Assembly: GCF_041355105.1 (NCBI RefSeq)
Contig: NZ_JBFUPK010000001.1
Coordinates: 248,001-312,000 of the forward strand
Length of the DNA: 64,000 bases
From: Terriglobus sp. RCC_193
GTDB taxonomy: Bacteria > Acidobacteriota > Terriglobia > Terriglobales > Acidobacteriaceae
Direction of reading: 5' to 3'
Shown here: positions 29,318 to 37,057 of the stretch, in pieces
Layout of the letters: each line of letters begins with the position of its first letter
Position numbering within the stretch: position 1 is the stretch's first letter
Program-made: the position numbers and the translations under genes
Notes under the pieces: generated by a model
Databases searched by the model: none
What the model was told of the DNA's origin: nothing
The model's input: only the letters and a program-made list of their open reading frames with translations

Positions 29318-32026
29318 TTACCCCTCCGGATCATACCCAAGGTTGGGGCCAAGCCAGCGTTCCACTTCCGCAACGGTCCAGTTCTTTCGCTGTGCGTAGT
29401 CTTCTGCCTGATCACGATCGATCTTGCCCAGCGAGAAGAAACGCGATTCCGGATGCGCGAAATAGATGCCGCTGATGCTTGAGCCGGGCCACATGGCAAA
29501 GGATTCGGTAATCTCAATACCGGTGTTTTCCTGCACCTTCAGCAGCTTCCAGATGGTGCCTTTCTCCGTGTGATCGGGGCACGCAGGATAACCGGGCGCA
29601 GGACGAATGCCGCGATACTTCTCGCGGACCATGTCCTCCACCGACAGCCCCTCGCAACGGCCATAGCCCCACTCATCACGCACCTGCTTATGCAGCGCCT
29701 CCGCAAAAGCTTCTGCAAGGCGATCAGCAATCGCTTCCGCCATGATGGCGCTGTAGTCATCGTGCTCTTCGCGGAACTTCATCACAAGTTCCTTCAGGCC
29801 AATACCGCTTGTGACAGCGAAGGCGCCGATGGTATCGGGCAAACCTGTCTCCTTCGGAGCGATGAAGTCCACAAGCGAGCGGCAAGGCTCATTGCCTTCA
29901 CGATGCGCCTGCTGGCGCAGGAAGTAGAAGTGTGTGAGGACTTCGCTGCGTGATGCATCGGTGTACAGCTCCACATCGTCACCGACAGCATTGGCAGGGA
30001 AGAGACCGTACACGCCGCGTGCCGTAAGTAGCTTCTCCGCGATGATGCGGTCAAGCATCTTGTTGCCATTGGCGAACAGTTCACGTGCTTCCGTGCCCTG
30101 CTTCTCATCGTCGAGGATGCGCGGATAGAGTCCCTTCAGGCCCCAGGCGTGGAAGAAGGGTGACCAGTCAATGTATTCCCGCAGCGTCTCCAGCGGGAAG
30201 TTATCGAGGACGCGCACGCCGGTGAACTCCGGTGTAGCGATATCTTCACTCTTCCACGCGATGGGCGTGCGACGCTCGCGTGCCTTTGCCAGCGACACCA
30301 TAGGCTGCTTAGGCGCCGCGTGTGCCTTGCGGACCGCTTCATACTCTGCATGATGCTGCTCAATGAACTGTGTGCGGTTCTCTTCGCTGAGCAGGCTTGT
30401 AGTGACCGGGACGGCGCGGCTGGCATCGGTGACGTGAACCACCGGCTGACTGTAATGCGGCGCAATCTTGATTGCCGTATGGGCACGGCTGGTGGTTGCG
30501 CCACCGATGAGCAGTGGCAGCGTGAAGTTCTGCCGCTCCATCTCGCGCGCGACATGCACCATCTCATCAAGGGATGGCGTAATGAGGCCGCTGAGGCCGA
30601 TGATGTCCGCACGCACTTCCTTGGCGCGTTCCAGAATCTTCTCCGCGGGCACCATCACGCCCATGTCGATCACTTCGAAGTTGTTGCACGCAAGTACGAC
30701 ACCAACGATGTTCTTGCCTATGTCATGCACGTCGCCCTTGACGGTGGCGAGCACGATCTTACCCTGAGCTTTGATCTCAATGCCTGCTGCGGCAAGTGTT
30801 GCCTTCTCCTGCTCCATGAAAGGAGTGAGCCATGCAACGGCCTTCTTCATCACACGCGCGGATTTAACCACCTGGGGAAGGAACATTTTGCCTGCACCGA
30901 AGAGGTCGCCGACGATGCTCATGCCAGCCATCAATGGGCCTTCGATGACAAGCAAAGGACGGCCTAACTTTTGCCGTGCTTCTTCCGTATCCTGTTCGAT
31001 GTATGCATCGATACCTTTGACCAGGGCGTGTGCAATGCGTTCTTCCACAGTGCCACTGCGCCACTCCTCCACCTTCTTTTCCGCGGCCTCGGTGTTTGCC
31101 GATCCAGAAGCCTTCAGCTTCTCACCAAAGTCGACGAGACGTTCCGTGGCATCCGGGCGGCGGTTCAGCAGAACATCTTCAACGAGTTCCTTCAGCTCCG
31201 GCTCGATCTCTTCATAGACCTCGAGCATGCCTGCGTTGACAATGCCCATGTCCATGCCTGCGGCGATGGCGTGGAAGAGGAACGCGGAGTGCATCGCTTC
31301 GCGTACCTTGTTGTTGCCGCGAAAGCTGAAGGAGATGTTGGAGACGCCGCCGCTAACCTTGGCATGGGGCAGGTTCTGCTTGATCCAGCGTGTGGCGTTG
31401 ATAAAGTCCACGGCGTAGTTGTTGTGCTCCTCCATGCCGGTGGCTACCGTGAGGATATTGGGATCGAAGATGATGTCTTCCGGCGGGAAGTGGACAACGT
31501 CCACAAGCAAGCGATAAGCGCGCTCACAGATGCGGATCTTGTCTTCGTAAGTGGCCGCCTGCCCCTGTTCATCAAAGGCCATGACGACGACCGCAGCGCC
31601 AAACTTACGCACCGTGCGTGCATTCTGCAGGAACTTCTCTTCGCCTTCCTTCAGCGAGATGGAGTTGACAATGCCTTTGCCCTGCAGGCACTTCAAGCCA
31701 GCTTCAATGACCTCCCACTTGGAGGAGTCCACCATGAAGGGGACCTTGGCGACTTCAGGCTCGCTGGCGAGGAGTTGCAGGAAGCGCGACATGGCGGCAA
31801 CGCCGTCGATCATGCCCTCGTCCATGCAGATGTCGATGACGTTGGCGCCGTTCTCGACCTGCTGACGCGCGATGGCGACGCCTTCCTCGTATTTGCCTTC
31901 CTTGATCAGCTTTGCAAACTTCGGCGAACCGGCAACGTTGGTGCGTTCGCCCAACATGATGAAGACACCAGGCTGCTGCGTGAAGGGTTGCGATCCTGAA
32001 AGGCGCAGGGGGCGTTGCGGAATCAT
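29318..32026 (-). CDS. metH: Methionine synthase, folate/cobalamin/activation subunit (split MetH)
   Basis: 902 aa, ATG start with GGAG 6 bases upstream, overlapping the stop of the upstream subunit gene (ATGA). It corresponds to E. coli MetH without its first domain. Order: pterin-binding barrel (~20-290; [39 protein letters not shown]); B12 cap helices (~310-410); B12-binding Rossmann domain with the DxHxxG motif DVHDIGKN (lower axial His434), [10 protein letters not shown] and [14 protein letters not shown]; and the C-terminal AdoMet-dependent reactivation domain (~560-902) with [15 protein letters not shown]. It transfers the methyl group of 5-methyl-tetrahydrofolate to homocysteine through cobalamin, using the homocysteine subunit supplied by the neighbour. 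All key residues are present, so it is not a pseudogene fragment. Confidence 0.93.
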
Positions 32027-33129
32027 CGTGCTCCAGCCAGTTCTAATGCGTATTCACGCGGGTGTTTGCCGTCGAGGGCTTTTGCAATGGCGGCGATGTG
32101 TTCCGGTGTGTTGCCGCAGCATCCGCCTGCAATGTTGATGAGACCGTTCTTTGCGAAGTCGCTGAGGAAGCGCGCCATGTCTTCCGGTTCCAGATCGAAG
32201 CCTGTGGGTGACAGGGGATTGGGCAGGCCCGCGTTGGGATAAGCGCTGATGGCGGTGTGGGCCTTGGCTGCGAGTTCGCTAAGGAATGGAAACATCAAAT
32301 CCGGGCCAATGGAGCAGTTCAGGCCCACAGACAGTGGGTTTACATGGCTCACCGCATTCCAGAATGCTTCCACAGTCTGTGCGGAGATCATGGTTTCACC
32401 ACCACGACCAACAGCTGCGGAGATCATCACGGGCAGTTCGACCCTGTCTTCGTCAAAGACTTCGCGGATGGCAACGAGCGCGGCCTTCGCGTTCAGTGAA
32501 TCGAAGATGGTTTCTACGAGCAGCGTGTCCACTTTACCCGCAATCAGTGCGCGTGTTTGCAGTTTGTACGCCTCGCGAACCTGATCGAAAGTGACCACGC
32601 GGAAGCCGGGATCGTCGGCGTCCGGAGAGTTTGAGAGCGAAACGGTCAGCGGACCGATGGCACCTGCAACAAAACGCTGGCGACCGTCGTCGCTGGCCAC
32701 GTTATCGGCCCATTCGCGGCACTGCAGCGCAGAGACTTCGTTAATCTCCCACGCGAGATCGTTGAGGAACTTATTCTCAAGGATCTGCTGATAGAACGCG
32801 GGGTCTTTGCGGCCGCCATGTTCGCGCGGATCTTCTACGAAAAACTCACTCTGCGCAATGCCTGTGGCAGAAAATGTGTTCGTTTCCACGATGTCTGCAC
32901 CCGCGATGAGGAAGCGGCGATGAATATCGCAGATCATCTTCGGTTGCGTGAGTGAGAACAGATCGCCATTGTTTAGCAGGTCTTTGGGGGCGTCTTTGAA
33001 GCGTTCACCGCGCATGTCGGCTTCCGTCATCCCGTAGGTACGGATGGTGGTGCCCATGGCGCCGTCAATAATGGCGATGCGCTCCTGAAGGACTTTACGC
33101 AGAGGATGTTGATCGCTATTCGAAGACAT
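32023..33129 (-). CDS. metH: Methionine synthase, homocysteine-binding subunit (split MetH)
   Basis: 368 aa. It is the homocysteine methyltransferase barrel that forms the N-terminal domain of single-chain MetH. The catalytic zinc ligands are present: C272 in [10 protein letters not shown] and C337/C338 in [10 protein letters not shown]. Other family motifs are [36 protein letters not shown] and [18 protein letters not shown]. The zinc activates homocysteine thiolate for attack on methylcobalamin in the partner subunit. The stop overlaps the partner's start by 4 bases with its own ribosome-binding site, so the two are coupled and probably made in equal amounts. This is a genuine gene split at the domain boundary, not a frameshift, since each part has complete ends. 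Confidence 0.92.
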
Positions 33130-35222: not shown

Positions 35223-35329
35223 GGATTTCATGAAGAGTGGCTGAGGGATGAGCCCTGCGACGCCACGACAACCGGACGAGTCTGTACCGGTGTCAACTCT
35301 CTCCTGGGGAACCGGGGAACATGAGATTC
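35223..35329 (+). promoter_or_regulatory. SAM-I (S-box) riboswitch
   Basis: The conserved SAM-I core is present in order: AAGAGTGG, GAGGGA, GCCC, CC and GACAACC (35233-35272), then a P3 helix (CCGG..CCGG), then GGTGTCAACTCTCTCC. The outer helix P1 forms between GGATTTCATG (35223-35232) and CATGAGATTC (35320-35329), 10 pairs with two wobbles. It lies about 150 bp before the ThrC-like gene on the same strand. By family behaviour, SAM binding should lower expression downstream. I did not identify the expression platform with confidence. The preceding 35080-35222 shows nothing clear besides presumed divergent promoters. Confidence 0.87.
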
Positions 35330-35481
35330 GGGATACGGCTTCTCCGCAGCTTGTTCGGACCAGCAGTATGACCGTCTAATCAGACTTCCTTCCGCGCGGC
35401 GCCATCTATCGCCATGGAACGCGCCACATCCAAGAGAGCGTCGCAGTGCAGTGTCTTTCTTCCACACCGGAAGAGGGTTCT

Positions 35482-36774
35482 ATGTCGTCTGCGTGTACAC
35501 CGTATGAGCTTTACTCGAAGGAATCGGGTAAGAGCTATGGCAACCAGCCGCTGAGCATCTGCGACGAATCGTTTACGCCTCTGGAAGTGCGTTACGACCT
35601 GGAAGCTGCGAAGCCTCTGTTCACGAAGAAGATTGTCGAAGCCGGTCCGGACAACATGTGGCGCTATCGTTCGCTGCTGCCCATTCCTGAGGGATTTGAG
35701 CCAGACCTGCCGGTAGGATTTACGCCGCTGGTGCGTGCGAAGAACCTGGGGAAGCGCCTTGGTTCACAGAACCTGTATGTGAAGAACGATGCTGTCTGCT
35801 TCCCTACACTGAGCTTCAAGGATCGCGTGGTGGCAGTGGCGCTGGCCAATGCGCGTGCGTTTGGCTTTGATGTGGTGGGCTGCTCGTCGACCGGTAACCT
35901 GGCGAACTCGGTGGCGGCACAGTCGGCCCGGCTGGGCATGAAGGCTTGCATTCTGGTTCCCGCCGACCTTGAACCCGCGAAGATTCTGAATACCTTGATT
36001 TACGGTGCACGTCTGGTGCGCATTGATGGCAACTATGACCATGTAAATCGTTTGTGCAGCCTGATTGCTGATCAGTACAACTGGGGCTTCGTGAACGTGA
36101 ATCTGCGCCCTTACTACGCAGAGGGTTCCAAGTCTGTGGGCTTTGAAATTGCGGAACAACTGGGATGGAAGCTGCCGGACAACGTTGTTGTTCCGATGGC
36201 CGGTGGTTCGCTGATCCGCAAGATCAAGAAGGCGTTCGATGAGCTTGTCTATCTCGGTCTTGTCGAAGCAAAGCATGTGCGTTTCTTCGGTGCGCAGGCC
36301 ACGGGCTGCTCGCCTATTGCGCAGGCCGTGAAGAACAACACGGAGACCATCACACCGCAGAAGCCCTCGACCATTGCGCGTTCGCTGGCGATCGGTAATC
36401 CGGCGGATGGTCCGTTTGCCTCTCGCATGATTCGCGAGACTGGCGGATGGGCTGAGGATGTGTCCGACATCGAAGTGGTCAGCGGCATCCAGGAACTGGC
36501 GGAGACGGAAGGCATCTTCACCGAGACCGCAGGTGGCGTCACGACGGCTGTAACCGCCAAGCTGATTGCGCAGGGACGCATTGCAGAAGATGAACTGACC
36601 GTTGTGTGCATCACGGGTAACGGCCTGAAGACAACCGATTGCATTGCGGATCGCTTTACGCTGGGCCGCGCGGTGCGTCCGCGCCTGGCGGACTTTGAAG
36701 AGTACATCAATGAGCTGGACGGACTTGCTGCATCTGCTGCAGAGCCGGAACTGGCACTTGCAGGAGGAAACTAA
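35482..36774 (+). CDS. thrC: Threonine-synthase-like PLP enzyme under SAM riboswitch control
   Basis: 430 aa. The ATG at 35482 has GAGGG 4 bases upstream; the GTG at 35446 is less likely. It is a fold-type II PLP enzyme of the threonine synthase group: cofactor Lys in PTLSFKDRVV (about K113), phosphate-binding loop SSTGNLANS, and GNGLKTTDC near the C-terminus. N-terminal CDESFTPLEVRYDLEAAK is typical of long ThrC proteins. Threonine synthase converts O-phosphohomoserine to threonine. Here, however, the gene is preceded by a SAM-I riboswitch and followed by a sulfur-carrier gene. This suggests that sulfide carried on the partner replaces water, giving homocysteine, or cysteine from another acceptor (inference). 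Family firm, reaction uncertain. Confidence 0.85.
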   Translation: MSSACTPYELYSKESGKSYGNQPLSICDESFTPLEVRYDLEAAKPLFTKKIVEAGPDNMWRYRSLLPIPEGFEPDLPVGFTPLVRAKNLGKRLGSQNLYVKNDAVCFPTLSFKDRVVAVALANARAFGFDVVGCSSTGNLANSVAAQSARLGMKACILVPADLEPAKILNTLIYGARLVRIDGNYDHVNRLCSLIADQYNWGFVNVNLRPYYAEGSKSVGFEIAEQLGWKLPDNVVVPMAGGSLIRKIKKAFDELVYLGLVEAKHVRFFGAQATGCSPIAQAVKNNTETITPQKPSTIARSLAIGNPADGPFASRMIRETGGWAEDVSDIEVVSGIQELAETEGIFTETAGGVTTAVTAKLIAQGRIAEDELTVVCITGNGLKTTDCIADRFTLGRAVRPRLADFEEYINELDGLAASAAEPELALAGGN

Positions 36775-36775
36775 G

Positions 36776-37057
36776 TTGGCAATTCGAGTAATGCTTCCCG
36801 CCGCCTTTGCGCGGCACACGGCAGGAACCAAGCAGGTGCAATCTGAGGCAGGCACGCTACCCGCGCTGGTGGACGATCTGGGAGTGAAGTTTCCGGAACT
36901 GGGCGTGCATATCAAGGATGAAGACGGCACGCTGCGTAAGTTCATCAATGTGTATGTCAACGATGAGGACATCCGCTTCCTGGGCGGAGATACGTATCAG
37001 TTTCAGGACCGCGATGAGGTCATGTTTATTCCTTCCATCGCCGGTGGCTGCATGTAG
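36776..37057 (+). CDS. MoaD/ThiS-like sulfur carrier with GGCM tail
   Basis: 93 aa. Start is TTG at 36776, one base after the ThrC-like stop, with a perfect AGGAGG at 36762-36767; the protein begins MAIRVMLPAAF. It has the beta-grasp fold pattern of MoaD and ThiS: LPALVDDLGVKFPELGVHI, FINVYVNDEDIRFLGGD and VMFIPSIAGG. Such proteins carry sulfur as a C-terminal Gly-Gly thiocarboxylate. Here two residues follow the Gly-Gly (ending IAGGCM), so a protease of the JAMM type would have to remove Cys-Met, as described for QbsE-like carriers. No JAMM protease or MoeB-like activator is nearby. No molybdopterin genes occur in the window, so a role with the ThrC-like enzyme is favoured. A strong terminator follows. 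Confidence 0.87.
   Translation: MAIRVMLPAAFARHTAGTKQVQSEAGTLPALVDDLGVKFPELGVHIKDEDGTLRKFINVYVNDEDIRFLGGDTYQFQDRDEVMFIPSIAGGCM

Follow-up and report, generated by a model that had tools for sequence, protein, structure and literature searches.

The 64,000-nucleotide stretch of the Terriglobus sp. RCC_193 genome analyzed here (the window; contig NZ_JBFUPK010000001.1, G000:C1:248001-312000) carries a compact forward-strand unit in which an S-adenosylmethionine (SAM-I) riboswitch precedes a gene for an enzyme resembling threonine synthase (ThrC) and a gene for a small β-grasp sulfur carrier. On comparative grounds, we regard this unit as a likely acidobacterial counterpart of MetM/MetO, a homocysteine synthase and its carrier known from Streptomyces. 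The genome (4.2 Mb in nine contigs) is 99.98% complete, and among named species Terriglobus roseus has the nearest carrier, with 91% of the matched residues identical.

The aptamer of the SAM-I (S-box) riboswitch lies at 35225..35327 on the forward strand and matches RF00162 over the full length of the model (1-108 of 108) at 72.1 bits and E 6.4e-15, the gathering score being 44.4. It is the sole Rfam RNA family reaching the gathering threshold within the window, and no other SAM-I match emerged genome-wide from the scoring of 150 of the 378 candidates of a first look. The aptamer ends 154 bp before the ThrC-like gene, so that the covariance model bears out an earlier note on this DNA, made without database searches, which had recognized S-box motifs and a closing P1 helix about 150 bp before that gene. 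For comparison, we used the best 80 of 409 confirmed relatives from a genome-collection scan with the carrier as the query, and SAM-I was found upstream of the same gene pair in 67 of these loci (including L036 and L062, both truncated by the end of a contig). The covariance model used for these loci was made from 11 riboswitches, 9 of which are among the positives by construction; Rfam itself confirmed SAM-I in 9/12 and 9/13 of the loci submitted. Given this recurrence and the full-length Rfam match, a chance motif can be ruled out. Of the 13 loci in which the covariance-model search found no SAM-I, L040, L051, L060, L085, L087, L097 and L098 begin inside or too near the unit for a judgment; L091, L095, L096, L101, L105 and L108 have the necessary upstream room.

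Just before the ThrC-like start codon, the folds and the leaders of relatives predict a forward-strand hairpin, CTTTCTTCC-ACACC-GGAAGAGGG (35455..35477), whose 3' arm is likely to be the ribosome-binding site of that gene and which is a candidate translational expression platform. The mean best stem score in 74 leaders of ThrC-like genes is 4.44, versus 2.81 (standard deviation 0.24, highest 3.39) in 200 shuffles that keep base composition only, neither dinucleotides nor relatedness; the 80 carrier leaders, taken as a comparison set, average 2.89. The stems differ among relatives by paired changes, e.g., CTTTCC/GGAAAG, TCTTCC/GGAAGA and CTCCA/TGGAG, and their recurrence fits translational control in the window's family. 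Several leaders, mostly from outside that family, have no such hairpin, and the folding energy of the whole leader is unremarkable (z -0.62). In two loci (L094, 4549-4750; L103, 4527-4720), SAM-I is followed not by a hairpin over the ribosome-binding site but by a hairpin and T run that looks like an intrinsic terminator.

The ThrC-like gene (35482..36774, forward strand; ATG at 35482, stop ending at 36774) encodes a 430-aa fold type II pyridoxal phosphate (PLP) enzyme. It matches PALP (PF00291) with 224.7 bits and TIGR00260 thrC with 276.4 bits, above the cut-off of the latter model, and thrC models are its best matches, whereas the cysteine synthase A model PRK10717 requires 387 bits and gives only 30.5. 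This enzyme has both the lysine motif SFKDR and the STGN loop in common with canonical ThrC. The loop reads STGNLA in 76 of the 79 ThrC-like relatives from the carrier-scan loci, whereas canonical ThrC has STGNT, and a VNVNLRPYYAEGSK-type loop is present in 71 of the 79 where canonical ThrC has VN-SVNPYRLEGQK. The loops in which the two differ are presumably those that bind the phosphate group of the substrate in threonine synthase from Thermus. In one relative (L038), the frame is interrupted (185 aa). N-terminal cysteines suggestive of a zinc ribbon (CxxC...CxxC) match the pattern in 69 of the 76 relatives for which a start codon could be assigned; the Terriglobus group departs from it (the window at 35482-35600, by eye, and L030-L032, L034-L036 and L081).

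One base separates the TAA of the ThrC-like gene from the TTG start of the carrier gene (36776..37057, forward strand; stop ending at 37057), which encodes a 93-aa MetO-like protein of the ThiS family (PF02597, 46.7 bits). Its AGGAGG ribosome-binding site (36762..36767, forward strand) lies within the end of the ThrC-like gene; since the window holds 13 AGGAGG matches, fewer than in shuffles, the motif counts by its position only. Coordinates and profile thus agree with the MoaD/ThiS-like gene that the earlier note had described one base downstream. That note had also singled out a GGCM ending, and the window carrier indeed ends in Gly-Gly followed by Cys-Met, but Cys-Met is not conserved: the residues after Gly-Gly vary from 0 to 17 in the 80 related carriers, with 31 of the 80 tails starting with Cys. 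The nearest solved chains are 3dwg_C (listed as cfp10A antigen), which we take to be CysO, and 4n6e_B (ThiS/MoaD family protein), so that the closest structural relatives are presumably of the CysO type.

A ThrC-like match precedes the carrier in 79 of the 80 related loci, within 15 bases in 60 of the 79, and the sole exception (L098) is cut by a contig end; because the carrier was the query, this adjacency is partly built in, and the phylum sample described below gives the fairer count. In L098, L100, L107 and L109, the gene immediately after the carrier is thrB, which encodes the homoserine kinase that produces O-phosphohomoserine, and SAM-I lies upstream of the thrB-bearing unit in the latter three, L098 being the cut locus. 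A thrB-thrC row stands beside the pair in L093 and L099. Genes of sulfur transfer also occur nearby: L108 has cysM, a JAMM protease gene, the pair and a MoeB-like gene in a single row, and L096 has JAMM and MoeB-like matches near the pair. Nonomuraea gerenzanensis (L110) combines a SAM-I match of 68.7 bits, an enzyme 51.7% identical to that of the window and a carrier ending at Gly-Gly, which appears to be the layout of Streptomyces metM-metO. An Aliarcobacter plasmid carrier was dropped as a relative, being part of a cysteine gene cluster and accompanied by a ThrC that does not belong to the MetM clade.

That clade emerged from a maximum-likelihood tree of 63 rows, of which 22 come from alignment A1, 30 from among the 49 phylum matches and 11 from other ThrC-like proteins; the tree leaves out G113, G137 and G153 as well as the phylum-sample loci belonging to the window's family. 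In this tree, 51 MetM-type rows, Nonomuraea included, share one branch of length 1.44 with support 100/100, which separates them from canonical ThrC and the group holding the third ThrC-like protein of the Terriglobus genome. The canonical ThrC of this genome groups outside the clade, and the window enzyme does not group with thrB-linked canonical ThrC. Nonomuraea serves here as a proxy for an actinobacterial SAM-I-controlled homologue, and it falls inside the clade on a long branch; the tree has further long branches in G032, Haloarcula, the third ThrC-like protein and Aliarcobacter. One MetM subclade of 33 rows unites the window, Nonomuraea and most carrier-adjacent loci. Its sister, 18 rows from Acidobacteriota, has an immediately adjacent carrier only in G148; the other 17 rows lack one (that of G078 is 2.6 kb off), carriers elsewhere in these genomes not having been searched for. 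SAM-I lies directly upstream in six members of the sister subclade (G148, G172, G124, G023, G045 and G078). In G013, G159, G167 and G183 (L156, L161, L168 and L165), a MetM-clade gene with no adjacent carrier stands in a row with thrB and canonical thrC.

In a search of 197 Acidobacteriota genomes, the MetM profile (cut-off, E 1e-100) was passed by 49, and by 48 once G032 was removed (337 bits; its stretch contains no carrier, and in the tree it joins a Haloarcula protein that carries a threonine synthase annotation). SAM-I lies on the same strand no more than 500 bp upstream of the MetM match in 26 of the 48 and 2.3-2.4 kb upstream in 4 more, with none in 18 at the stricter filter. In the four distant cases (G018, G113, G137 and G153), a MoeB-like match is situated between SAM-I and the enzyme, so that the presumed activator appears in the same SAM-controlled row. 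A carrier gene is present within the fetched stretch in 26 of the 48 loci (25 plus the window, counting the one 2.6 kb away in G078), thrB in 7 and canonical thrC in 4. Strong MetX (TIGR01392 at E 1e-60, a cut-off chosen once the score gap was seen) occurs in 2 of the 48 MetM genomes versus 50 of the 149 others (Fisher p 1.9e-5, relatedness not corrected); MetA alone gives no contrast (2/48 versus 13/149, p 0.53). Within the window's family, 16 of 22 sampled genomes have MetM, all with a single SAM-I within 500 bp upstream. The other 6 lack any SAM-I match, and strong MetX is present in 4 of them. This distribution suggests that MetM and MetX swap within the family. In both MetX genomes examined (G007 and G065), the MetX gene adjoins a PF01053-like gene. 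Two near-complete genomes of the family (G099 and G186) yielded nothing in the searches for MetM, MetX and SAM-I, and the 15 genomes with a MetA match do not include them.

The Terriglobus genome itself, 99.98% complete as it is, has no match to MetX (TIGR01392) or MetA (PF04204); in 14 control genomes, these searches were positive in 9 and 8, respectively. Seven PALP proteins exceed the cut-off. Besides the window enzyme, they include a canonical threonine synthase whose gene directly adjoins thrB, the third ThrC-like protein and one cysteine synthase of the CysM type, the remainder appearing, by reading of the sequences, to be one TrpB and two threonine dehydratase-like proteins. With the canonical ThrC beside thrB, threonine synthesis is covered, and the window gene is ruled out as the only ThrC of the genome. 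This second ThrC, a JAMM protease and a MoeB-like activator, all of which the earlier note had looked to for support, are thus present. There are four carriers of the ThiS family: that of the window, one in a carrier-MoeB-rhodanese fusion (G000:C1:1917404-1918924; L022:9405-10925) with the JAMM gene just upstream (L022:8941-9369), and two others (a 78-aa open frame and one of 246 aa) that are putatively ThiS and MoaD. The carrier domain of the fusion holds an internal SIAGG-AP, and the JAMM protease might release the fused carrier from its own activating enzyme by cutting. Of two strong PF01053 enzymes, one scores as cystathionine β-lyase and the other is ambiguous between γ-synthase and γ-lyase; the top seven PDB matches of the latter are named cystathionine γ-lyase or γ-lyase-like, with γ-synthase eighth.

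From the gene pair, its riboswitch, the clade, the co-occurrence pattern and the missing MetX and MetA matches, we infer with high, if not complete, confidence that the two genes encode a homocysteine synthase and a dedicated sulfur donor for it, with O-phosphohomoserine and the carrier thiocarboxylate as substrates. This is the reaction that the earlier note had tentatively proposed, and it is now probable on comparative evidence, chiefly SAM-I in the 67 loci and thrB after the carrier in 4. In the pathway that we envisage, the JAMM protease would take off the Cys-Met tail of the carrier, a MoeB-type E1 would then activate its Gly-Gly end, and rhodanese or another sulfur source would convert the activated carrier to the thiocarboxylate. 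The ThrC-like enzyme would bind O-phosphohomoserine and eliminate phosphate in the manner of threonine synthase, but the sulfur of the carrier thiocarboxylate would be added at the γ carbon in place of water at the β carbon. Hydrolysis would free homocysteine, which the neighboring cobalamin-dependent methionine synthase (MetH) could methylate to methionine. When SAM is plentiful, the aptamer would shut the operon, in the window's family probably by keeping the ribosome-binding site in the hairpin.

Several points weigh against this assignment. A Microcystis ThrC that is 51.6% identical to the MetM of Streptomyces albulus and lies beside a MetO-like carrier is described in PMC12172450 as a threonine synthase and deaminase that does not function fully as MetM in the cell; clade membership at about 51.6% identity is therefore no proof of function, and the Nonomuraea enzyme stands at much the same distance from that of the window (51.7%). 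No carrier occurs in the fetched stretch of 22 of the 48 MetM-type loci, some of these stretches being short because of contig ends. Four of the 48 MetM genomes also carry MetX or MetA, and in 86 of the 197 genomes MetM, strong MetX and MetA are all missing. At a loose MetX cut-off of E 1e-20, the contrast becomes weak (16/48 versus 70/149, hand count), and 9 of the 16 MetM genomes of the window's family have some TIGR01392 match at this level; the MetX-profile matches in MetM genomes are mostly partial, that of G091, a member of the family, being nearly full length (139.5 bits). Finally, the two strong PF01053 enzymes have been retained, making a transsulfuration route possible.

The best surviving alternative, to which we nevertheless assign little probability, is that the enzyme is a true second threonine synthase, with the carrier serving another pathway and SAM-I merely tuning the branch between threonine and methionine. 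It could draw on TIGR00260 being the best curated model and above its cut-off, on the Microcystis homologue with a MetO-like neighbor, reported as mainly threonine synthase and deaminase (PMC12172450), and on clade members G111, G049 and G027, which adjoin thrB in stretches that lack a carrier, G111 also having strong MetX. However, a canonical ThrC already adjoins thrB in this genome; where canonical thrC is next to a MetM-type gene (L093, L099, G013, G159, G167 and G183), both have been kept; the clade has full support on its long branch; MetX and MetA are unmatched; and there would be little reason to turn off threonine synthesis in response to SAM. A still less probable reading has O-phosphohomoserine converted to homocysteine by a plant-like cystathionine γ-synthase and a cystathionine β-lyase, the pair making another sulfur compound such as cysteine. 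The two PF01053 enzymes, the presumably CysO-type relatives of the carrier and the presence of cysM and JAMM in the neighborhood of the pair in L108 and G009 are in keeping with it, but the ambiguous PF01053 enzyme resembles γ-lyases ahead of γ-synthases, the single SAM-I match of the genome belongs to the pair, thrB is tied to the pair, and a separate CysM-type gene and a separate MoeB-fused carrier beside JAMM exist. Equally improbable is synthesis of homocysteine from O-phosphohomoserine and free sulfide with the carrier as a bystander, which could explain why the fetched stretches of some MetM-clade members contain no carrier gene but sits poorly with the carrier following the enzyme in nearly all of the carrier-queried loci, mostly within 15 bases, and with a carrier-dependent precedent that has reportedly been published.

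For the sister subclade, we offer the more tentative and rather doubtful suggestion that it might represent a second type of O-phosphohomoserine-dependent homocysteine synthase, using free sulfide or a carrier borrowed from cysteine or cofactor synthesis. If so, the MetM family would span carrier-dependent and carrier-free enzymes, some under SAM-I (G023, G045, G124, G172 and G078) and some in a threonine operon beside thrB and true thrC (G013, G159, G167 and G183).

Upstream of the unit, on the reverse strand, lies a split MetH, which is a likely user of homocysteine, though as a neighbor outside the unit: an N-terminal piece of 368 aa (32023..33129) and the remainder of 902 aa (29318..32026), with a 4-base overlap between them. 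Both pieces were matched near the pair in 17 of the 80 related loci, for which flanks were limited. Elsewhere in the genome (G000:C1:548264-554578; L023:5265-11579), genes for an E1 (ThiF), an E2-like UQ_con protein and a JAB protease adjoin those for the type VI secretion proteins VasE and DotU, i.e., a ubiquitin-like conjugation set next to a secretion system.

The earlier note had called the route one that the ThrC label does not cover; a suggestion that it is undescribed is not supported. According to PMC12172450, MetM is a novel Streptomyces homocysteine synthase that converts O-phosphohomoserine, with homologues in cyanobacteria (Hasebe et al. 2024); metM of S. albulus has a SAM riboswitch upstream; and the Microcystis carrier next to thrC is likened to S. 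albulus metO. Gaps in homocysteine synthesis had been listed, and a protein thiocarboxylate pathway was known, by 2018 (PMC5764234). Since the mechanism is already in print, the locus is best filed as an acidobacterial MetM/MetO, of which we found no earlier description among titles and abstract openings (most subscription journals lie outside this coverage). Most likely, it extends the known route to a member of Acidobacteriota and represents no new pathway. What is added here is SAM-I over metM-metO-thrB, the recurrent hairpin at the ribosome-binding site, the swap with MetX within the family and the sister subclade mostly without an adjacent carrier. As TIGR00260 claims the gene, automatic annotation probably gives such genomes two or three threonine synthases; it would then show no first step of homocysteine synthesis and might wrongly call them methionine auxotrophs. 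With the MetM type in about a quarter of the sampled Acidobacteriota genomes (48/197), the route would be an important path to methionine in this soil-dwelling phylum, and the riboswitch, thrB linkage and MetX swap provide the means to re-annotate the family from sequence alone.

Among known systems, MetM/MetO of S. albulus is the closest, sharing with the window a ThrC-like enzyme with a SAM riboswitch upstream (PMC12172450). The window comes from another phylum, and the likeness would run through the layout, clade and context of Nonomuraea rather than through direct sequence comparison. An adjacent sulfur carrier with Gly-Gly near its C terminus is present here too, with the difference that Cys-Met follows in the window whereas the Nonomuraea carrier ends at Gly-Gly; some relatives of the window further differ in having thrB in the same row, and the hairpin over the ribosome-binding site is a candidate addition. 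In Streptomyces, MetO is reportedly encoded next to MetM, thiocarboxylated and the donor of the sulfur, and the original abstract is said to state that the system has spread to other bacteria and archaea. HcyS/MetY of Wolinella succinogenes is likewise said to make homocysteine by way of a protein thiocarboxylate, with JAMM and E1-type helpers and a PF01053 sulfhydrylase as the acceptor; we rejected this filing because the acceptor in the window is instead a PALP (PF00291) enzyme. CysO/CysM/Mec of Mycobacterium, in which the carrier is processed by a JAMM protease, resembles the window in the best solved match of the carrier (3dwg_C) and in its fold type II PLP partner, but that partner is here of the ThrC type and not a cysteine synthase, as the PRK10717 score attests, and SAM control points to methionine. 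Canonical ThrC, in turn, shares the fold, SFKDR and STGN with the window enzyme, which is set apart from it by a separate clade, STGNLA and the VNVNLRPYYAEGSK loop.

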